DNA from: a virus
Strand: one strand, 5' to 3'
IMG/VR virus record: IMGVR_UViG_3300043499_000136
Location: 1-47,732 of that record
Length of the DNA: 47,732 bases
In this document: positions 30,830 through 45,280 of the stretch, one piece after another
Layout of the letters: every line of letters begins with the position of its first letter
Position numbering within the stretch: position 1 is the first letter of the stretch
Made by a program: the position numbers and the translations under genes
The notes under the pieces: generated by a model
What the model was told of the DNA's origin: nothing
What the model saw: the letters and a program-made list of their open reading frames with translations, nothing else
The model's database searches: none

Positions 30830-31794
30830 TAGTCCTCCTTGTTTCTCGGCATATAGCCGTGTCTGATAATGCTCTTCACGTCTGAGCCTTGCAACTCTCC
30901 GGTGCAGAGGCTGAGGAAGTCGCAGTCGTACCTGCAATTCTTCCCCGAGGTTCTTGGAAACCGCTCCCGCTTGAGCCCGGCCTGGATCTCCTGCACCGTC
31001 TCCACCAGCTCCTTCATCATGGTCTTGGTCATGGTGGGGTCCTGTGGCAGCTGAGTTCTCCGGAAGAAGCGGTCGTTGCGAGCGTGGAGGTGCCGGAGGA
31101 TTTTCAGGTATCGCTTCGGGTTCAGCTTATGCCGCTTGATTTCCGCCAAGTAGCTCCAGTAGTCGCAGTTGATGTTCATCCGCTGAGAGAGCTCGCCGCT
31201 CTGGAGCAAGCCGGGGATGGTCGGGGCCTTCGTCTTGATCTGGTTGTACTCCACGCCCCGTAGGGGTGTGTATCCCATCTTCTCCGCACACCAGAAGTAC
31301 CGCGATAGCTGGGAGTCGAGAACCATGAATTCCGGCTCGAAGAAGTCCTTCTTCATGGTCTTGTGATCTTGGAGCCACAGGCCTCCCTGCGCGTCCTCGT
31401 AGATGCGGTCCACGATGAAGCGGAACTTGAGGCCGTTCGGCAGTTCGATGATCTCGTCCATCTCGGAGTCGATGGTGTGCTGGGTCTCGTCCTCTGCTGC
31501 GTAGTGGTGGAAGTAGGCCCGCATGATCCGGTTGACCTCGGTGGGAAGATCACCCCACTCTTCCTTGGTTTCCTCGAATTGGCCGTCGAAGCGCTCCGTA
31601 TACTCCTCATGGATTTCGCGCCAATCCTCGCCGTCGTAGTGGTACATGAGGCAGTCGTGAATCCAGCTACCCCGTTCGAGCTGGACCTTCTTCGTCCGCG
31701 GCTGCAATTCCATCACGTACTTGTACCGGTACTGGTTGGGGCACCGGCGCCAGGTCTTGGCCCGGCTGTTCGAGATGATCAATTCCTTAGCCAT
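30829..31794 (-). CDS. RecB/Cas4-like exonuclease with Fe-S cysteines (321 aa)
   Basis: PD-(D/E)xK nuclease, probably resecting DNA for annealing recombination. It opens with SNSRAKTWRRCPNQYRYKY, the signature of Cas4/AddB/RecB-type nucleases; active-site residues D129 (FIVDRI) and D143-x-K145 (LQDHKT). C18 with C287, C291 and C297 would coordinate a 4Fe-4S cluster. The ATG at 31794 follows AAGGAGAGCCTTGGA and overlaps the polymerase stop; a codon 15 triplets upstream is not needed. Works with the Sak4-like and DUF669 proteins. Confidence 0.8.
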   Translation of the reverse strand: MAKELIISNSRAKTWRRCPNQYRYKYVMELQPRTKKVQLERGSWIHDCLMYHYDGEDWREIHEEYTERFDGQFEETKEEWGDLPTEVNRIMRAYFHHYAAEDETQHTIDSEMDEIIELPNGLKFRFIVDRIYEDAQGGLWLQDHKTMKKDFFEPEFMVLDSQLSRYFWCAEKMGYTPLRGVEYNQIKTKAPTIPGLLQSGELSQRMNINCDYWSYLAEIKRHKLNPKRYLKILRHLHARNDRFFRRTQLPQDPTMTKTMMKELVETVQEIQAGLKRERFPRTSGKNCRYDCDFLSLCTGELQGSDVKSIIRHGYMPRNKED

Positions 31795-34174
31795 TCCAAG
31801 GCTCTCCTTCTCCCCAGTGGGTGCCGATGTCAACATCGGCGATGATGGGGATGTCGATCTCTGCGCCGAAGTACCGCTTGGCGTACCTCAGACTCTGCTG
31901 CTCCATGACGTTCTTCACTAGCTTCGCGGTTGCGTGCGCCTTCTTCTTCGCTACCTCGAAAAGGAGTGCGTCGTGGATGGTGCCAACCACGGGCACACCG
32001 CGCCGGTGAAGCAGCAGCATTGATATTAGCATCAAGTCGCTGGCCGTCGACTGCACGGGACTATTGATGGCCTGGCGCTCAGCCTCTTGACGGACTTCCT
32101 TGTTCTGCGACACCACGTCCGGCAGGTGACGGACCCGTCCGAGGGGGCTTACTACTCGGTGGTACCGGCGAGCTAAGCGTCGCTGCCGCTCGTGCCATGG
32201 CCTCAAGGCTGGGTACGACTCGAAGAACCGGTCCCGCACCACGTTGGCTTCCTCGAGGGTGACTGTGACGTCGTAGTTGTCGAAGGCATATGTGACGAAC
32301 TTCGGAGCGCCCATGCCGTAGAGGAACCCGAAGTTCACCGCCTTCGCTTTCTTCCGAGTCTCCTTGTCGATGTCCTCAGGCCGCTTGCCCGTGGTCTCGG
32401 CTGCGGTCTTGAGATGCAGGTCCTCTCCTCGGAGGAAAGCCTGGATCATTCGCTTCTCGTGGGCCATCATCGCAGCGATTCGAAGCTCGATTTGAGAAAA
32501 GTCGGCTTGAATTAGGACATTCCCGGGCTCTGCCGTGAAAAGTCCGCGGATGAATGTGTTGCGGGGGACGTTCTGCAAGTTGGGATTCTGCGAGCTAAGC
32601 CGGCCGGTGACGGTCCCGAAGAGCTTGTAGCTTGGGTGGATACGCATGTTCTCGTCCGCGTGATCCGCATACGGCCGCAGATATGTGGTGAGGTACTTGT
32701 TCCACTTTCGCCACTTGAGCAGCGCCGCACACTCCTTGGACTCCTTGGCCAGCTGGAGCAGGACCGACTCCTTGGTCGAGTTTTTGCCCTTCTTCGTTTT
32801 CTCGAGCGGCGTGAGCCCGAGGTCCTTGAAGAGCCACTCGGCCACCTGGTCGGGGCTGTTGAAGTTGATGCTTTCCTTCTTGAGCGCGGGTACCCGTGTA
32901 ACCATTGCCCGCTCGATACGATCCTTGATCTCCGTGGCTTCGGCTATCCGCTGTGTCCACCGGTCGGGGTCCACCTTGATCCCCCGTCGCTGCACATCCA
33001 CCAGCACCTCGGCTGCCGGCATCATCAGGAACTTGAACACCCGAGCCGAGCGCTTGTCCTTGATCAGCTCCGGCACGAGGCCGTCCTTGAGCCGCTTCGT
33101 GTAGTCGGTGTCCTTCCCGTTGTAGACGGCAACCTGACGAATCGGCTCGTCGTACGCGGACTTCTTCTTCTCCTTGTCCATGTCGTAAGCATTGGCCTGG
33201 AGCAAGATTTGGCTGAGATGCTTCAGTGACTTGAAGCGGTTCTCGTTGACCATGTGAGCCGCGAGCATTGTGTCGAACCCGGGCTTGATGAAGATGCCGT
33301 AGCGCGTCATCCACACCCAGTCGAATGTAGAACCATTGTGGGTTACACTCTTGGCCCGCTCCAACTCCGGCTGGAGAAAGTGCAGCACCTTCTCGTAGTT
33401 GTCGCGCCAGCTTGAGGAGCTATGCCACAGGGGCACCACCCAGGCTGAGCCTGGTTCCACGGTGAACGCGATGCTGATCGTCCGCGCATCCCGGTCCCAC
33501 CACGGTAGGAAGTTGGTCTCCACGTCAAAGGTGATCTCGTCGGCGTCCCTGAGCTGGCTACGCAGCCACCGCAGCTGGGCCTTGGTGCGGATGATCTTCA
33601 CGCGGGTCTTCGGCGTCTCGTCCTTGCCGTGGATCATGCGGTCGAAGCGCTGGAGGTCGGCTACGAACATCTCCCCGTACTTCGGATTCCGTAACATAGC
33701 CGCCGGGTGGAAGGTCGCCATCACGCTCATGCCGTCGAGGTCCCACCGAGTCCCGGTGTGCTTGGTGATGCCAGACTTGCCGATGAAGCCCTGGAGTGCC
33801 GAGTTGCCCATTAGCAACACGTACTTCGGATCTACCTGCTTGACTTCCTCAAGTAGATAGTTCTCGACGCAGACTTTGATCTCTTTTCGCTCGGGAGTCC
33901 GATTGCCCGGCGGGCGGCATTTTGCGACGTTTGTGATGTAGCAATCGTCTCGGCTAAATGACGTATGCTCGGCGAGGAGTCGGTTGAGAAGCTTGCCGGC
34001 AGCCCCAACGAACGCCTGATGTGATTCATCTTCCCGCTGGCCCGGGGCCTCACCAACCAACATGATCTCGGCCTTTCGGCTTCCGGCACCCATGAGGCAC
34101 ACATGGTCAGCCTCCTCGTGTAGTTCGCAAAGCTCGCAGTTGGGATTGCGGATTTCGTCCTTCCAGCTACCCAC
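31787..34174 (-). CDS. Uracil-DNA glycosylase / DNA polymerase I fusion (795 aa)
   Basis: Replicative polymerase with a repair domain. Residues ~10-180: family 4-type uracil-DNA glycosylase, GEAPG at 41-45, HPAAMLR at 156-162, and cysteines C13, C16, C86, C102 spaced for a 4Fe-4S cluster. Residues ~190-390: 3'-5' exonuclease with FDVET (216-220), HNGSTFDW and YNGKDTDY, so proofreading looks intact. Residues ~400-795: family A polymerase with motif A ADFSQIELR, motif B KAKAVNFGFLYG and motif C GTIHDALLF. No 5'-3' exonuclease. Phage SPO1 polymerase is a known precedent for glycosylase-polymerase fusion. Overlaps both neighbours by 8 bases. Confidence 0.9.
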   Translation of the reverse strand: MGSWKDEIRNPNCELCELHEEADHVCLMGAGSRKAEIMLVGEAPGQREDESHQAFVGAAGKLLNRLLAEHTSFSRDDCYITNVAKCRPPGNRTPERKEIKVCVENYLLEEVKQVDPKYVLLMGNSALQGFIGKSGITKHTGTRWDLDGMSVMATFHPAAMLRNPKYGEMFVADLQRFDRMIHGKDETPKTRVKIIRTKAQLRWLRSQLRDADEITFDVETNFLPWWDRDARTISIAFTVEPGSAWVVPLWHSSSSWRDNYEKVLHFLQPELERAKSVTHNGSTFDWVWMTRYGIFIKPGFDTMLAAHMVNENRFKSLKHLSQILLQANAYDMDKEKKKSAYDEPIRQVAVYNGKDTDYTKRLKDGLVPELIKDKRSARVFKFLMMPAAEVLVDVQRRGIKVDPDRWTQRIAEATEIKDRIERAMVTRVPALKKESINFNSPDQVAEWLFKDLGLTPLEKTKKGKNSTKESVLLQLAKESKECAALLKWRKWNKYLTTYLRPYADHADENMRIHPSYKLFGTVTGRLSSQNPNLQNVPRNTFIRGLFTAEPGNVLIQADFSQIELRIAAMMAHEKRMIQAFLRGEDLHLKTAAETTGKRPEDIDKETRKKAKAVNFGFLYGMGAPKFVTYAFDNYDVTVTLEEANVVRDRFFESYPALRPWHERQRRLARRYHRVVSPLGRVRHLPDVVSQNKEVRQEAERQAINSPVQSTASDLMLISMLLLHRRGVPVVGTIHDALLFEVAKKKAHATAKLVKNVMEQQSLRYAKRYFGAEIDIPIIADVDIGTHWGEGEPWNG

Positions 34175-34610
34175 GTGCCATCTCCAAGTCGATGAGCGCT
34201 AGCTCCTTCTTGAGACTCTTGTCTCCGAAGTGGAACGCAAGCCAGCGGAAGATGTAGTCGGGGATGCTGTGGCAGTACGGAATGTGGGGGTTATCCGTCT
34301 CCCCATTCGGCTCGAATCGCATGTGTGCGAACTTACGAGCGAGCATCGGTAGCTCCGCACCGAACTGGAAGCCGATTGACGCCATGATCGCGAAGGCGTT
34401 GATCATCCCCTCCATCGTACTCCCTGTCGAGCCGAAGCCGTGGATGAACAGCTCACCAAGTGATCCATCCGCCTGCCGGTTGGCGGTGAGATATCCCGTG
34501 AAGTTGCCGATCTCTACTTTGTGGGTGATCCCTTCCCGGTCAGTAGGTAGTAACTTACGGTCAGGACCTACCTCTCCCTCCATGGTGTCCTCGGCATGTG
34601 GCTCAGTCAT
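34167..34610 (-). CDS. Stand-alone class II ribonucleotide reductase C-terminal domain (147 aa)
   Basis: Residues ~18-130 resemble the extreme C-terminal part of adenosylcobalamin-dependent NrdJ: a GITHKVEIGNFTGYLTAN strand pair, GSTMEGMINAFAIMAS helix, KFAHMRFEPNGETDNPHI, then SIPDYIFRWLAFHFG. The catalytic barrel of the reductase is absent from the window, so it cannot reduce nucleotides alone; it may bind nucleotides, modulate host reductase, or be a remnant. The start at 34610 overlaps the dCMP deaminase stop. Homology is from memory of the family. Confidence 0.7.
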   Translation of the reverse strand: MTEPHAEDTMEGEVGPDRKLLPTDREGITHKVEIGNFTGYLTANRQADGSLGELFIHGFGSTGSTMEGMINAFAIMASIGFQFGAELPMLARKFAHMRFEPNGETDNPHIPYCHSIPDYIFRWLAFHFGDKSLKKELALIDLEMARG

Positions 34611-35137
34611 CAATGCACCTGATTCGTGAACTGGTAGTCCGGCCCCGGGTCCCAATGCTGGTTACCCATCAGGATGATCTCCAGGCCAGCGTCGTCGAGG
34701 ATGTCGAGCCTCCCGGCCCGATACTCCTTCACGTAGACGAACTGGGTAATCCCCGCGGCAACGATGAGTTGAGCACAGGAACGGCACGGGCTGTATGTAC
34801 ACCACATAGCTGCACCGTGGGTTGCGATTCCGAAACTGGCTGCCCAGGCAATCGCATTTGACTCCGCGTGGATCGCTCGGGTGCAACCCTCTGCGAATTT
34901 GCACCGATCGGAGAACGCCTCGCTCTCGCAGATGCCACAGGTGCAGACGTGGTCATCTACTTCACAGCCTACGTCAAGGCAGTGAGCCATCCCGGGCGGT
35001 GAGCCGTTGTACCCCTCGGCGATCACGCGGTTCTTACGAACGATGAGCGCCCCTACCTGTCCACGCTCACAGCTTGATCGTTGCTCCAGCAGCTGGAGGC
35101 GTCCGAGTAGGTACTGCTCTCTAGTTAGTCGTGCCAT
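34610..35137 (-). CDS. dCMP deaminase (175 aa)
   Basis: Converts dCMP to dUMP, feeding thymidylate or modified-pyrimidine synthesis. Zinc site: HAE at 90-92 and PCRSC at 117-121. The substrate segment GYNGSPPGMAHC (42-53) and the extra Cys-rich loop (58-85) are typical of phage and eukaryotic dCMP deaminases. Full length. Encoded next to two thymidylate-synthase-fold genes. Confidence 0.9.
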   Translation of the reverse strand: MARLTREQYLLGRLQLLEQRSSCERGQVGALIVRKNRVIAEGYNGSPPGMAHCLDVGCEVDDHVCTCGICESEAFSDRCKFAEGCTRAIHAESNAIAWAASFGIATHGAAMWCTYSPCRSCAQLIVAAGITQFVYVKEYRAGRLDILDDAGLEIILMGNQHWDPGPDYQFTNQVH

Positions 35138-35939
35138 ATGCCCTCTCCATTCTCTTGCGATCTCCTTCGAAGTAGTGGAGGCTCATGATGTGCATCGTGA
35201 GCTTCCCGATTGCGATTCCCCCGAACTGCGTGTCGACCCCGGCTTCCACCAGCATCTCGTTCATCCACTGGCCGAGCCGGACCGCCATGTAGACGTCGTC
35301 GCAGAAGTGGCGGACGAAGTCGACGCTGCGGATCATGTAGGTCACCGACAGCTCTTGCTCACGGATCATGAAGTGGTAGCCCAGTGAGCAGGGCACCCGC
35401 TCTCCGTGGTGTGCCCCGGTGTCCTCGGGGAACCAGATTGGCAGGAAAGCCTGACGAGTGAGTGGCTCCCGCATCAGCAGGCCTGCCACGTCCCCGAGAT
35501 CGCCATAGCGGAAGCGGATGCCCTGGTGAACATCACAGCGATCAGGAGCATGCTTCGGCCACATGCGCTCGGGGTACGTGTGCGAGTACTGAGGCTCCTT
35601 CCCCCCGAAGTCCTTGAGGTGCCGGCTCGCCACTCCGTCATCCAACCAGCGTTGTGCGGAGGGCGGGGGATTCAGCGGCCTTCCGGACACCCGCTCGAGA
35701 AAGTGCTCCTCGGCCCATGGCATCTGCGGATCGATGACCTCCTGCGCCTTCTCGACGCTGTGAGGCATCTCGAAGCTGAGACTGACGTCCTGCAACTCGT
35801 AGCTCACGTGGGCGGGTGAGTTGCTTACGTCCACAGCGTGCCACGTGGGTACGGGGACTTCGACTCCTTTCTTCAGCAGGTCCCTGCCGATCGTTCGGAA
35901 GATGTACGGATAGCTACCCTCATACGTCTGCATCGTCAT
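35121..35939 (-). CDS. Thymidylate synthase-fold protein 1, putative pyrimidine hydroxymethylase (272 aa)
   Basis: Folate-dependent transferase acting on a pyrimidine nucleoside monophosphate at C5. Nucleophile C184 in VPCSLGYHF; phosphate-binding TRQAF (161-165) and RSVD (204-207). By hand alignment, residue 215 (11 after R204) falls where thymidylate synthase has the Asn that reads uracil, and here it is Asp, as in T4 dCMP hydroxymethylase. So a cytosine substrate and hydroxymethyl product are inferred. Sequence otherwise diverges from ThyA, which leaves open a plain dUMP methylase. Start at 35939 overlaps the upstream gene by 20 bases; an ATG at 35933 is an alternative. Confidence 0.7.
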   Translation of the reverse strand: MTMQTYEGSYPYIFRTIGRDLLKKGVEVPVPTWHAVDVSNSPAHVSYELQDVSLSFEMPHSVEKAQEVIDPQMPWAEEHFLERVSGRPLNPPPSAQRWLDDGVASRHLKDFGGKEPQYSHTYPERMWPKHAPDRCDVHQGIRFRYGDLGDVAGLLMREPLTRQAFLPIWFPEDTGAHHGERVPCSLGYHFMIREQELSVTYMIRSVDFVRHFCDDVYMAVRLGQWMNEMLVEAGVDTQFGGIAIGKLTMHIMSLHYFEGDRKRMERAYGTTN

Positions 35940-36753
35940 CCCATTTCTTCTTGAGGACATCGAGGTTGAGGTCGCTGAGCGGAACCGGCTTCGGTGCCTC
36001 ACAGTGTCGACCGTGCTCTACGAAGAAGGCGCGCTGCTCGCGCACCCTACGGCGTGTGCCCAACTTGGAGACCACCTCTCGACGATCGAGGTCATCGAAG
36101 TACTCCAGCTGCTTCTTCATGCCACGCAGCGCCGGCAGCTTCTCGATCTCGTCGTCGCTGTAGTTATTGATCTCTTCGGCCCAGCCACTGCTGAAGAAGT
36201 ACGGGACTCCCTGCAACGATGAATGCTGTGCGGATGCGAGCATCCATCGGAACCCGTACTCGTTGACATCGTCGCCGCGGCCTTCGGCGATCTCCTTGGC
36301 GATGCAGTACGCCAGCGCCAGGTCCAGGCCGCCCATCCGAGTGATCATGCTCGTGCGACTGAACATGTTCATCACCGGCTTCGGGTGGGCTCGGAACGTG
36401 AACCCAAGGATGCAGTTGCCCCAGGCATAGCTCACATGCCGCTTACCCTTCTTGCGGCACATCATCTGGGCGATCTGGGGCCGTTGCCAGCTCACGTTGC
36501 TGGCCTGCTCGATGAAGAGCTTCAGGTCCACCGGCTCGATGTAGTCGTTCTGGAGCGTGGTGAAGCGGCCCCTCGTCATCCAGAGGTCCTTGGCTACATC
36601 GATCTCGTAAGCCATGCTCGGTGTCTCGACCGCCACGTCGAAGAACACGTGGGTCATGGAGCTAACGACCATCTCGTCCCTTGGGCTAAGGAAGAACTGG
36701 TCGCACATGCCGTCCCAGAGCTGACGGAGGTCCGGATATTCCCAGGCGTCCAT
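35920..36753 (-). CDS. Thymidylate synthase-fold protein 2 (277 aa)
   Basis: Second, more divergent member in tandem with the first. C114 in GNCILGFTF lines up with the nucleophile (Cys, five residues, Phe), and FSRTSMITRMGGLD (131-144) with the RS-x-D...N segment. R133 is kept, the RSxD Asp is Met136, and the substrate-reading position again holds Asp (D144). It could be an active hydroxymethylase with different specificity, or a partner subunit, since active sites in this fold are shared across a dimer. Start shares one base with the MazG-type gene's stop. Confidence 0.55.
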   Translation of the reverse strand: MDAWEYPDLRQLWDGMCDQFFLSPRDEMVVSSMTHVFFDVAVETPSMAYEIDVAKDLWMTRGRFTTLQNDYIEPVDLKLFIEQASNVSWQRPQIAQMMCRKKGKRHVSYAWGNCILGFTFRAHPKPVMNMFSRTSMITRMGGLDLALAYCIAKEIAEGRGDDVNEYGFRWMLASAQHSSLQGVPYFFSSGWAEEINNYSDDEIEKLPALRGMKKQLEYFDDLDRREVVSKLGTRRRVREQRAFFVEHGRHCEAPKPVPLSDLNLDVLKKKWDDDADV

Positions 36754-37289
36754 CAGTCCTCCATGAGGAACTTACGGCCCTCGGGGCTGATGTCCTCACC
36801 TCCGGCGACTGGATCGGCCTGCCAGTCCCGCTTGCTGACCTTGGCCCAGGTCTCCTCGACGATGGCGTCGAAGTCCCAGCCGCGCTGGTGGCAGTACTGC
36901 ATGCAGCCCCGGATCACCATTTCGATGTCGTACTCCGACCTCCGGACCACGAGGCCACCGATGGCCGCGGTCAGCTCGAAGATGGTGTCCATGTCCATCG
37001 GGTCGGCTACGGCCTTGAGCCGGAACCCCTCCGTGTTCTTGGGCACACCGACGTGAGCCATGGCGCCGAGCAGATACACGATCAGATCTCCGACCGCATC
37101 CTTGCCGTCGGCGACGTGGTCCGCTGCCGATCCGCGGATGTTCTGGCGCTGCTTCAGGTGGCTGTGTGCCAGCTCACCCAGCTCCTCGATCACTCCGAGA
37201 ACGGTCTCTCGGCTGTCGGTGCTGGGGAAGTTGTGAGCCACCCAGACGTTGCGCTCCTCGACTAACTCTCCGAATCGAGTGGAGTCCAT
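36753..37289 (-). CDS. MazG-type nucleotide pyrophosphohydrolase (178 aa)
   Basis: All-alpha NTP pyrophosphohydrolase that converts an NTP to NMP plus pyrophosphate. Metal-binding EELGE at 35-39 and KDAVGD at 63-68 give the E-E-x-x-E...D pattern. The C-terminal ~90 residues are extra. In a hydroxymethylcytosine pathway such an enzyme would remove dCTP and supply dCMP, as T4 dCTPase does; substrate here is unproven. The start follows GAAAGGACGTCT. Confidence 0.8.
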   Translation of the reverse strand: MDSTRFGELVEERNVWVAHNFPSTDSRETVLGVIEELGELAHSHLKQRQNIRGSAADHVADGKDAVGDLIVYLLGAMAHVGVPKNTEGFRLKAVADPMDMDTIFELTAAIGGLVVRRSEYDIEMVIRGCMQYCHQRGWDFDAIVEETWAKVSKRDWQADPVAGGEDISPEGRKFLMED

Positions 37290-37837
37290 AGACGTCCTTT
37301 CCTCAGGTCGATGTATCGGTCGATTTGTGTGATGACCTTGTCGTAGTTCCGGTACCCCGCCATGGCCTGCTCCCCGGTGTAGTCATAGAAGAGCAACTCA
37401 CCCCCGTACCCCTGGAAGAGGGAGCGGTAGCGGTCGTAGATAACCTCGGCGCGCTCCTTCACGCCGTCCATCTCGTGCTTGCTGGCCGCCACGTTCTCGA
37501 GGACCGTGTGCTTCGGGGGTAGGCACACGATCGTGATGGCCAGCGACGAGAGGAACTTCTTGATCAGGTCCTGCTCGTACGGCTGGAACTCCACCGGACG
37601 ACCCACCACGTCGGCGTAGACCATCTCGCTCCAGAAGAGCCGGTCCCAGATGGTCGGCTTTTCGAGCTGACCTCCGATCTCGAGAGCGATTGCGGTGTAG
37701 GTGTCCTGTCGGGTGACCTTGTACAGGAGGTCCCGGTTCTCGACGGCCCGCTCCCCCACGGCCAGGCCGTACTCCATGCACAGCCCTTCGACGAGTGTGG
37801 ACTTGCCGCCTCCGTCCGGGCCTTCGACGATGATCAC
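37262..37837 (-). CDS. Deoxynucleoside monophosphate kinase, thymidylate kinase-like (191 aa)
   Basis: P-loop kinase starting MIIVEGPDGGGKSTL (P-loop GPDGGGKST at 6-14), with DRLFWSE near 64-70 as the substrate-binding DR motif of thymidylate-kinase relatives. Probably phosphorylates dTMP or a modified dNMP to the diphosphate, the step that commits an unusual nucleotide to DNA. Overlaps the MazG-type gene by 28 bases. Confidence 0.75.
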   Translation of the reverse strand: MIIVEGPDGGGKSTLVEGLCMEYGLAVGERAVENRDLLYKVTRQDTYTAIALEIGGQLEKPTIWDRLFWSEMVYADVVGRPVEFQPYEQDLIKKFLSSLAITIVCLPPKHTVLENVAASKHEMDGVKERAEVIYDRYRSLFQGYGGELLFYDYTGEQAMAGYRNYDKVITQIDRYIDLRKGRLWTPLDSES

Positions 37838-38106: not shown

Positions 38107-39522
38107 TCAGGCGCGTTCTTCGGTTCCGTAGACTAGCTCTGGGTGTTCCAGGATTTCCTTGGCCGTGGACTTCTTTTCCCGTAGGGAATCCACGACAGTC
38201 TCATCGATGGTGCCGGGTGCCACGTAGTGGCGATAGGTCACCTTGTTGGTCTGGCCCTTGCGGTGGAGTCGGTCGATCCCCTGGCTGTAGAGGATCAACG
38301 AGTAGATCAGGCCGTAGCAGATGCACTGGTTCGAAGCCACCAACTCGTTTAGACCTCGGGCTCCAGTTTGCCATTGCGAAATGAAAACAGTAGGCTTATC
38401 GGTACTATAGAACGCCTTGCGCTTTCTGAGCCTCCGCTTGGCGCTTACATCGCCGTAGAAAAGCAGCGTGTTGTAACCCGCCCGGCGCGCAGCTATCTGT
38501 GCGTCCAGTAGCTCGTGACGGAAGCGGCAGTACACAACGACCTTCTTCACGTCGGCATGCATCATCTCGTCCAAGTCGTTCTCCAGCTGCATCTGCTTCT
38601 CGCTGCCGATCTTCTTGGCGGTTCGCTCCATGGTTGACGGCCGTGTGCCCCCGAGCCAGCCGGAGGTGAGCTGGCTTAGCCGCAGCATCTGGACCAGGAC
38701 AATGGGGGTGACCGACTCGAAGTCCTCCATCTCGATGATCGACTCGCGGGCCAGCTCGTCGTAGGCTTCCCGGGTCTTGCGGCTGAGGGGCACGTGGACG
38801 ATGTTCGGCCCGCTCGGGTCCCAGACATGGCCGCGGCGCTCGGGCAGATCGAGACACTTGTCCTTGGTGATCGCGAACGTGTACGGGCGGATAACCCGTC
38901 GGAACTTCCGGGTCCGTAGGTACTTGACCACCTTGTATGCACGGGTGATTGCGTACTCCGACTTGAACGCTCCGTAGCTGGTCCCGAAGATCGACGGGTT
39001 CACAACCTTGTACTGAGCGAACAGGTCCAGGCGCGTCTTACCGATCGGCGTCCCGGACATCACGAGGCGGTACCGGATTCGCTTGCTGAGCAGGTATGCG
39101 CCCTTCGAACGGCGCGCGCCTACGGACTTGATCATGTCCGACTCGTCGATGATGATGACATCGGGCTTCCACAGCGCCAGCTCGTCGTACAGGTGTGGCC
39201 GCCAGATCGAGTCGATGCTTACGATCTTCCAGATCGGCCCTGAGTGTGGTATCTCCCCCCATGGATCGTGCTTTTCGATCTCCTCGGGCCACACGCTGAT
39301 GACGGACTTGGGGCAAGCCACTACGACACGGAGCCGACGGTTCTCCTTGACGCAGAGGCAGCCCACCCAATCGATAGCGATCTTCGTCTTGCCCGTCCCC
39401 ATCTCGGCGAAGAGCGCGCCGCATCCTGTTTTCAGGAACTTCTTCAGCGCCCGCACCTGGTGGCGCATCGGCTTCGTCTTGAAGTAGTAGACGCGCTTCC
39501 CGCGCGTACGGACCTTCGTCAT
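38107..39522 (-). CDS. SNF2-type superfamily 2 helicase (471 aa)
   Basis: DNA translocase or helicase. Walker A EMGTGKT at 40-46, motif II DESD at 126-129, motif III SGTP at 156-159, and motif VI QGIDRLHRKGQ near the C-terminus, the SNF2-like arginine-finger signature. Phage versions assist replication fork restart or recombination. Overlaps the next upstream gene by one base. Confidence 0.85.
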   Translation of the reverse strand: MTKVRTRGKRVYYFKTKPMRHQVRALKKFLKTGCGALFAEMGTGKTKIAIDWVGCLCVKENRRLRVVVACPKSVISVWPEEIEKHDPWGEIPHSGPIWKIVSIDSIWRPHLYDELALWKPDVIIIDESDMIKSVGARRSKGAYLLSKRIRYRLVMSGTPIGKTRLDLFAQYKVVNPSIFGTSYGAFKSEYAITRAYKVVKYLRTRKFRRVIRPYTFAITKDKCLDLPERRGHVWDPSGPNIVHVPLSRKTREAYDELARESIIEMEDFESVTPIVLVQMLRLSQLTSGWLGGTRPSTMERTAKKIGSEKQMQLENDLDEMMHADVKKVVVYCRFRHELLDAQIAARRAGYNTLLFYGDVSAKRRLRKRKAFYSTDKPTVFISQWQTGARGLNELVASNQCICYGLIYSLILYSQGIDRLHRKGQTNKVTYRHYVAPGTIDETVVDSLREKKSTAKEILEHPELVYGTEERA

Positions 39523-44670: not shown

Positions 44671-44900
44671 GAACCATCTTCTTCACGACGCGGGAAGTCC
44701 AGACCCTGCGGTTGCTCATGACCAACGGCTGCCCCACGTGCCACTGCCGAGCTAACCCCCGTGACCTCGGCGAGCGGTATCACGTCAGCGCTTCCACGAT
44801 GAGTCGCATCAAGACAGGGCACATCACGGAAGGAACCGAGAAGCCCCACCGTCCGCAGCATGTGGAGGTACGCCCCCATCCACGCGTATTCGAGGACTGA
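44667..44900 (+). CDS. Small helix-turn-helix protein (77 aa)
   Basis: GTG start at 44667 within the preceding stop. Contains a Cys-rich CPTCHC (residues ~25-30) followed by DLGERYHVSASTMSRIKTGH, a clear helix-turn-helix of the homeodomain-like or resolvase type. Possibly zinc-stabilised transcription factor. Overlaps the cupin-like gene by one base. Confidence 0.65.
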   Translation: MRTIFFTTREVQTLRLLMTNGCPTCHCRANPRDLGERYHVSASTMSRIKTGHITEGTEKPHRPQHVEVRPHPRVFED

Positions 44901-45280
44901 TGAAAGTGGAGTACCACGACGCCGACCACTTCAAGTGCAACGACCTGCGACGGTGGAAGCTTTCACTGTGGGGCGGCATCAGCATCCGCTTGCATCACTG
45001 GGTGGAGGGTGATCCACGGGAGTACCAGCATTCGCATCCGTGGAACTTCCTGACCCTGGTGTTGCGGGGCGGATATACCGACGTGGGGGACAACCGGCCC
45101 GATGACACGGTGCGCGCTCCCGCTGTGCGCTTGCGTAGTAGCGAATGGCGGCACTCGGTGGTCCAGGTTTTGCCCGGCACCTGGTCCGTAGTGATTACCG
45201 GCCGGATCATCGATCGGTGGAAGTTCTGGATCGGGAGATGGCGCGTCAACGAGGAGGAGTGGAATGAACGAGAGTGTTAG
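44900..45280 (+). CDS. Cupin-like protein (126 aa)
   Basis: Single beta-barrel of cupin type: HSHPWNFLTLVLRGGYTDVG (residues ~44-63) gives the first metal-binding motif and WRHSVVQVLPGTWSVVITG the second. Function in phage is unknown; could be a sugar-nucleotide or small-molecule enzyme, or a binding protein. TGATG overlap upstream, 17-base overlap downstream. Confidence 0.6.
   Translation: MKVEYHDADHFKCNDLRRWKLSLWGGISIRLHHWVEGDPREYQHSHPWNFLTLVLRGGYTDVGDNRPDDTVRAPAVRLRSSEWRHSVVQVLPGTWSVVITGRIIDRWKFWIGRWRVNEEEWNEREC

Follow-up and report, generated by a model that had tools for sequence, protein, structure and literature searches.

The phage T4 pathway that contains the deoxycytidine monophosphate (dCMP) hydroxymethylase gp42 also includes the dCTPase gp56, the deoxynucleoside monophosphate (dNMP) kinase gp1 and a dCMP deaminase, and gp42 is one of several members of the thymidylate synthase (TS) superfamily that use cytosine nucleotides. 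The RB69 gp42 and HY126 AfhB enzymes (structures 9iqu and 9iqc), linked to flavin adenine dinucleotide (FAD), are dCMP 5-hydroxylases, and MilA is the CMP hydroxymethylase of mildiomycin biosynthesis. Shewanella phage Thanatos encodes a dCTP pyrophosphatase, a dCMP deaminase and a TS/hydroxymethylase, and cytosine modification of its DNA has been demonstrated (PMC12838424), while the cytosine-modified contigs recovered by MetaGPA carry a TS with Asp at position 177 of E. coli TS (EcTS), together with dCMP deaminase and pyrophosphohydrolase domains (PMC8670742). Here we describe a leftward five-gene operon with the same types of helper enzyme as the T4 pathway, found in IMG/VR virus record IMGVR_UViG_3300043499_000136, the whole of which, 47,732 bases, is the window analysed. 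We believe that this operon is probably a nucleotide-level cytosine-modification cassette, a reading that draws on the observed gene order, fold, residues, conservation and co-occurrence, and from which we infer substrates, products, direction of flux and incorporation into DNA.

The rightward genes of the window encode terminase, portal, major capsid and tape-measure proteins. The five cassette genes, called A to E below, lie in a leftward replication block with a RecA/Sak4-like protein, a PD-(D/E)XK nuclease, DNA polymerase I (PolI), small proteins and an SNF2-type helicase. All five are open reading frames (ORFs) on the minus strand, each overlapping the next, as a sequence-only reading of this DNA had described. 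Because no near-identical DNA was found for the window in an annotated phage collection, the comparison was made at the protein level. The features are as follows.

38107..39522 (-): SNF2-type helicase, conserved upstream neighbour of the cassette (PF00176, E 6.1e-17; phrog_62, E 3.8e-102)
37262..37837 (-): A, dNMP (thymidylate-type) kinase, P-loop GPDGGGKST (phrog_761 thymidylate kinase, E 1.4e-15)
36753..37289 (-): B, MazG-like nucleotide pyrophosphohydrolase (phrog_715, E 2.3e-6)
35920..36753 (-): C, second TS-fold protein by AlphaFold and Foldseek (phrog_13667, unknown function)
36412..36414 (-): Cys114 codon of C, aligned with the TS catalytic cysteine (91/91 Cys; codon checked)
36322..36324 (-): Asp144 codon of C, aligned with the cytosine-recognising Asp at EcTS 177 (90/91 Asp; codon checked)
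35121..35939 (-): D, TS-superfamily enzyme with a dCMP-type active site (phrog_160 thymidylate synthase, E 3.9e-21); its ORF opens upstream at 36002 (35121-36002), and the likely start is 35939 or 35933
35703..35705 (-): His79 codon of D, at the catalytic Glu58/Glu60 position (His 108/111, Gln 2, Glu 1)
35388..35390 (-): Cys184 codon of D, equivalent to EcTS Cys146, the catalytic cysteine (111/111 Cys; codon checked)
35319..35321 (-): Asp207 codon of D, at EcTS Asp169, a pterin contact (Asp 107/111, Glu 4)
35295..35297 (-): Asp215 codon of D, equivalent to EcTS Asn177 and T4 Asp179, the base-specificity residue (111/111 Asp)
34610..35137 (-): E, dCMP deaminase with zinc motifs HAE and PCRSC (PF00383, E 1.5e-20; phrog_174, E 8.3e-44)
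31787..34174 (-): DNA polymerase I with an N-terminal family-4 uracil-DNA glycosylase (UDG), downstream syntenic partner (PF00476, E 1e-95; PF03167, E 3.9e-31)

Judged by its residues, D is a TS-superfamily enzyme that is not a thymidylate synthase. Its Pfam match to PF00303 is sub-threshold only; hhalign places it over T4 gp42, EcTS and the RB69 enzyme with E-values of 1e-8 to 1.6e-11, with the catalytic Cys, Arg and Asp in register, and its structure model (predicted local distance difference test, pLDDT, 89) finds MilA and the HY126 dCMP hydroxylase as its best Foldseek matches. We compared 111 aligned homologues of D with 63 canonical TS, 58 T4-type and 17 RB69-type enzymes. Every D homologue carries Asp at the EcTS Asn177 position, as do 58/58 T4-type and 17/17 RB69-type enzymes, whereas 59 of the 63 canonical enzymes have Asn. 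Asp at this position marks cytosine-using enzymes (PMC6400193, PMC5175136), and, according to work cited in PMC8670742, replacement of the Asn by Asp shifts the specificity of TS from dUMP to dCMP. The His147 position is likewise altered, being Thr or Ser in 111/111 D homologues, where His is typical of canonical TS and Thr of the T4-type and RB69-type enzymes. It is positions 177 and 147 that separate the TS genes of cytosine-modified contigs from those of unmodified contigs (PMC8670742), and D shares with the modified set both this residue signature and the types of neighbouring domain. Catalytic Cys184 is invariant. Given the Asp at 177, the missing His147 and the separate ThyX or ThyA genes of relatives, D very probably acts on dCMP. 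MilA, its best match by profile as well as by fold, has the same cytosine-type Asp, but keeps its Glu68 and prefers CMP by way of Ala176 and Lys133, whereas D has Ser205 (104/111) and Arg162, as in deoxy-specific enzymes.

The second TS-fold protein, C, is the new element of the cassette. Searches of C against Pfam, NCBIfam and PDB profiles gave no recognition of TS, and phrog_13667, matched by 91/91 C homologues, is its only family match. Its AlphaFold model (pLDDT 94.2), on the other hand, has as its best PDB matches the HY126 dCMP hydroxylase 9iqu (E 3.0e-6) and 9iqc, followed by MilA and the T4 dCMP hydroxymethylase; 31 matches reach E <= 0.001, and TS-superfamily entries make up all of the best 50 rows. 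The TM-scores of the best PDB matches are modest, at about 0.41-0.51, and by its predicted structure C is a distant member of the TS fold. The sequence-only reading had counted two TS-fold proteins here, and both stand, D by profile and fold and C by predicted structure and Foldseek. The C homologues all have Cys114 (91/91) and Arg133, and 90/91 have Asp144; hhalign aligns the three with RB69 Cys163, Arg183 and Asp194, the RB69-type family being the only one of the TS, T4-type and RB69-type families that aligns with C in register, though with a profile p of only 0.0038, short of a significant sequence relation. When the helix at about residues 61-71 was aligned by hand, no Glu fell at the 58 position of C, and residue 136, at the 169 position, is Tyr in 81/91 and Met in the window. 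Because of these two positions C appears to be folate-independent; its residues suggest a TS-fold protein that binds nucleotides, may be active and has given up folate.

The grouping of these genes is not due to chance, since the same order recurs in phages of Mycobacterium, Gordonia, Streptomyces, Microbacterium, Pseudomonas and Serratia. Helicase, kinase, MazG/dUTPase, C, D, dCMP deaminase and PolI follow one another in the actinobacterial phages NoShow and Muddy (Mycobacterium), Emalyn, Cozz and Vine (Gordonia), KimJongPhill (Streptomyces) and Huwbert (Microbacterium), although the deaminase gene of Muddy carries no name and lysin B or small genes interrupt some cassettes. In Gordonia phages it is lysin B that lies between D and the dCMP deaminase (L005:7007-7846, L007:6998-7837, L008:6857-7660). 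Pseudomonas phage PMBT14 and Serratia phage Serbin keep the order from the kinase on, with a 'hypothetical' gene in the C slot. The C-slot proteins of these two phages score weakly against the C profile; on manual reading they keep a Cys, and an Arg with an Asp 11 residues on, and the Foldseek matches of C include a PMBT14 protein of C-slot length (262 aa). The sequence-only reading had spoken of an actinophage operon; the operon of the window is borne out, and the module extends beyond actinophages. Among 99 non-redundant C-bearing loci, D has PolI nearby in 94, the kinase cluster in 92, the SNF2-type helicase in 92 and dCMP deaminase in 87.

When 168 sources (loci, named phages and the window) were screened for C and D, 167 encoded D, and 131 of those 167 also encoded C. 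The sole C without D sits at a contig end, while in 30 records with D but no nearby C there was no C match anywhere, several of these records exceeding 200 kb; C therefore depends on D and not the reverse, and a requirement of D for C is ruled out by the same 30 records. The D-only loci (L059, L034, L038 and others) lie on contigs of up to 434 kb and have RNase HII, RecA and DnaB-type genes nearby. D itself looks viral, because a collection of bacterial and archaeal genomes held only 7 homologues, all in contigs of metagenome-assembled genomes.

In the proposed pathway, B would hydrolyse dCTP (and dUTP) to the monophosphates, as predicted for a MazG-like enzyme. D would bind dCMP via Asp215, Cys184 attacking C6 and a one-carbon or hydroxyl substituent being placed at C5, and C would work alongside D, whether by joining it as a subunit or as an enzyme whose own substrate is dCMP or the product of D. 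Kinase A, predicted to phosphorylate the modified dCMP, would together with host nucleoside-diphosphate kinase yield the modified triphosphate, which the phage PolI would then build into DNA, replacing dC in part or entirely. E would convert spare dCMP to dUMP, for dTMP synthesis by host or phage ThyX/ThyA. The likeness to a T4 parts list that the sequence-only reading drew is upheld at the family level, in that a dCTPase-like pyrophosphohydrolase, a dNMP kinase and a dCMP deaminase beside a dCMP enzyme match known cytosine-modifying phages.

Several observations weigh against this proposal. We found no report of direct base chemistry for cassette-bearing phages in the open-licence literature, which is not proof of absence, and published annotation reads the genes as thymine synthesis (PMC10353413). 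The assignments of kinase and MazG-like protein are weak and do not give their substrates. Decorating enzymes are scarce: among 48 viral records with both C and D, glycosyltransferase families 2 (GT2) and 1 (GT1) each occur in 3/48 and carbamoyltransferase in 0/48, so that none is common, in contrast to the decorating carbamoyltransferase of the MetaGPA contigs. The T4 system also differs in having no counterpart of C, and the absence of a recognisable glucosyltransferase from the window, remarked on earlier, agrees with a negative GT2 search of the window. A modified base, if present, is thus probably not decorated by GT1, GT2 or carbamoyltransferase families, and other transferase families are possible. 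In D itself, the Arg127 position is Gln (Gln163) in 111/111 homologues, and the Glu58/60 position, Glu in 63/63 canonical and 58/58 T4-type enzymes and described as conserved in all TS, CMP hydroxymethylase and dCMP hydroxymethylase members (PMC6400193, a structural paper on T4), is His in 108/111, the window included, with Gln in 2 and Glu in 1. To judge from this residue, the His of the main D clade speaks against a folate chemistry that has stayed unchanged. Finally, D and D-like proteins form a clade of their own (support 100/99, with long branches that limit inference), separate from canonical TS, T4 dCMP hydroxymethylases and RB69-type 5-hydroxy-dCMP synthases.

The last point also means that the chemistry of D cannot be read from phylogeny. 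Three chemistries are described for Asp177 members, namely hydroxymethyl (T4), hydroxyl (RB69, HY126; PMC13390438) and methyl (engineered TS). Hydroxymethylation with methylene-tetrahydrofolate is, tentatively, the most likely single chemistry of D, given its retained pterin Asp and a seemingly folate-type ancestry: Glu is found at the same helix position in all of five divergent D-like proteins (5/5) encoded in C-bearing loci, which favours the alignment register and points to an ancestor that used folate. (These same D-like genes, which retain Glu beside C, rule out that the loss of Glu58 accompanies C.) With T4 gp42, D shares the TS fold, the Cys nucleophile, the dCMP-type Asp, Thr at 147 and Asp at 171/169; it differs in its own clade, in His for Glu60 and in Gln for the second Arg. 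The pyrimidine hydroxymethylation proposed from the sequence alone is accordingly upheld in part, as far as a cytosine-type D is concerned, but D does not belong to the T4 hydroxymethylase class, and the hydroxymethyl-dU variant of that proposal, an SPO1-like hydroxymethyl-dUMP product, is disfavoured by Asp177, dUMP enzymes keeping Asn (PMC5175136). A flavin-dependent 5-hydroxylation by D (or C), giving 5-hydroxycytosine as in RB69 and HY126 and not hydroxymethylcytosine, seems unlikely to us, although several observations speak for it. The RB69-type enzymes share with D the dCMP-type Asp, the Thr and the loss of Glu58, as well as a similar 'AExF..SG' helix, and align with D over its full length with the best of three hhalign scores (81, against 77 for TS and 64 for T4-type); the FAD-linked HY126 enzyme heads the fold matches of C and ranks high among those of D, and C aligns in register with this family only. 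Yet Phe58 and Asn169 are found in 17/17 RB69-type enzymes, where D has His and Asp and C has Tyr or another residue at 169; the tree separates D from them; hydroxylase and hydroxymethylase fold scores differ little; and RB69-type phages also glycosylate, whereas no such enzyme is common in cassette records and no arabinosyltransferase was recognised with the cassette. By its residues, then, D fits neither set fully, because position 58 is His (Glu in T4-type, Phe in RB69-type) and 169 is Asp (Asn in RB69-type). Still less likely is methylation of dCMP with methylene-tetrahydrofolate to 5-methyl-dCMP, and hence 5-methylcytosine DNA: the Asn-to-Asp TS that turns into a dCMP methylase (cited in PMC8670742) and the retained Asp169 point that way, but the rest of the canonical active site (His147, Glu58, Arg127) is not kept and, by alignment, the long C-terminal part of TS is absent from D.

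The ordinary supply of dTMP, in which dCMP deaminase, MazG/dUTPase, thymidylate synthase and thymidylate kinase feed dTTP as in SEA-PHAGES annotation, was earlier offered as the simpler alternative. The four enzyme names do fit a thymidylate route, and D retains the canonical ThyA fold and Cys184, Arg204, Asp207 and His255, with equivalents of EcTS Cys146, Arg166, Ser167, Asp169 and His207. That alternative has nonetheless lost ground to the point of being highly improbable: Asn177 and His147 are replaced throughout the family, Glu58 is lost in its main clade, C is left without an account, and ThyX (16/48 records with C and D, two matches partial) or a full ThyA (one other) coexists with the cassette in 17/48, as does a true TS with Asn177 adjoining D in Huwbert. 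What C contributes to the cassette is a separate question. An obligate hetero-complex, with C as a non-catalytic or half-site partner of D, is possible but doubtful. C lacks D or a D-like gene only at a contig end, the two are usually close neighbours, and, of the pair of Arg residues that active sites of the TS type take from the opposite protomer (PMC6400193), one is missing from D (Gln163); the 30 D-only records, however, mean that D is not always in need of C, and C retains a Cys/Arg/Asp set of its own that would be needless in a pure scaffold. No less speculatively, C might, with or after D, form a C6 adduct on dCMP or hydroxymethyl-dCMP through Cys114 and Asp144, the product being a modified dCMP not yet described that enters DNA as a finished nucleotide, without a sugar transferase, and the two-TS-fold pair a separate dCMP-modifying lineage, so far unrecognised, in phages of Actinobacteria and Proteobacteria.

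Regardless of the specific chemistry, the cassette reading bears on annotation. D is labelled 'thymidylate synthase' in more than 100 phage genomes and C 'hypothetical' in more than 80, and, because of its residue change, the label on D, which about a hundred records repeat, is probably incorrect. What is new here is C: conserved and without annotation, it joins D as another TS-fold protein in a cassette that published work has so far described as serving thymine synthesis (PMC10353413); its partner D and the likely class of substrate are known. Mycobacterium phage Muddy is among the carriers of D and C, as are phages listed on Mycobacteroides abscessus, and a modified cytosine, if true, bears on host restriction, type IV and CRISPR defences, on phage sequencing and engineering, and on enzyme mining for base modification. 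GenBank notes of Emalyn and Cozz name D 'ThyX' (L005:6007-6852, L007:5980-6858), although the D family has the TS (ThyA) fold and not that of ThyX.

Gordonia phages Mareelih and GMA2 (L175:3653-4501, L180:4019-4861) encode another Asp177 TS-like enzyme, next to thymidylate kinase and dCMP deaminase; Pro or an adjacent residue, not Glu, aligns at its Glu58 position, the tree puts it outside the D clade, and a search for further relatives of the Mareelih enzyme found none. As for the helper genes, a Pfam search of B gave no match, relatives have dUTPase or MazG-type proteins in the B slot, and their syntenic gene in the A slot is named 'thymidylate kinase' or 'polynucleotide kinase'. The N-terminal UDG domain of the window PolI scores 151.5 bits against TIGR00758 (NCBIfam cut-off 125.3); a UDG domain is also found by Pfam in the PolI of KimJongPhill and of locus L090, and was not detected in that of Muddy or Emalyn. 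Between deaminase and PolI lies a small TSCPD-domain protein (34167-34655, -) that resembles the C-terminal part of B12-dependent ribonucleotide reductase and is outside the set of conserved cassette genes. Upstream of the helicase is a protein of the nucleoside 2-deoxyribosyltransferase family (PF05014; 39522-39968, -), which is not among the conserved neighbour clusters of cassette loci. This family includes MilB-type nucleotide N-glycosidases, and by analogy the protein could act on dCMP. A cysteine-dioxygenase-like protein (phrog_4786, E 8e-21) is encoded at 44900-45280 (+).

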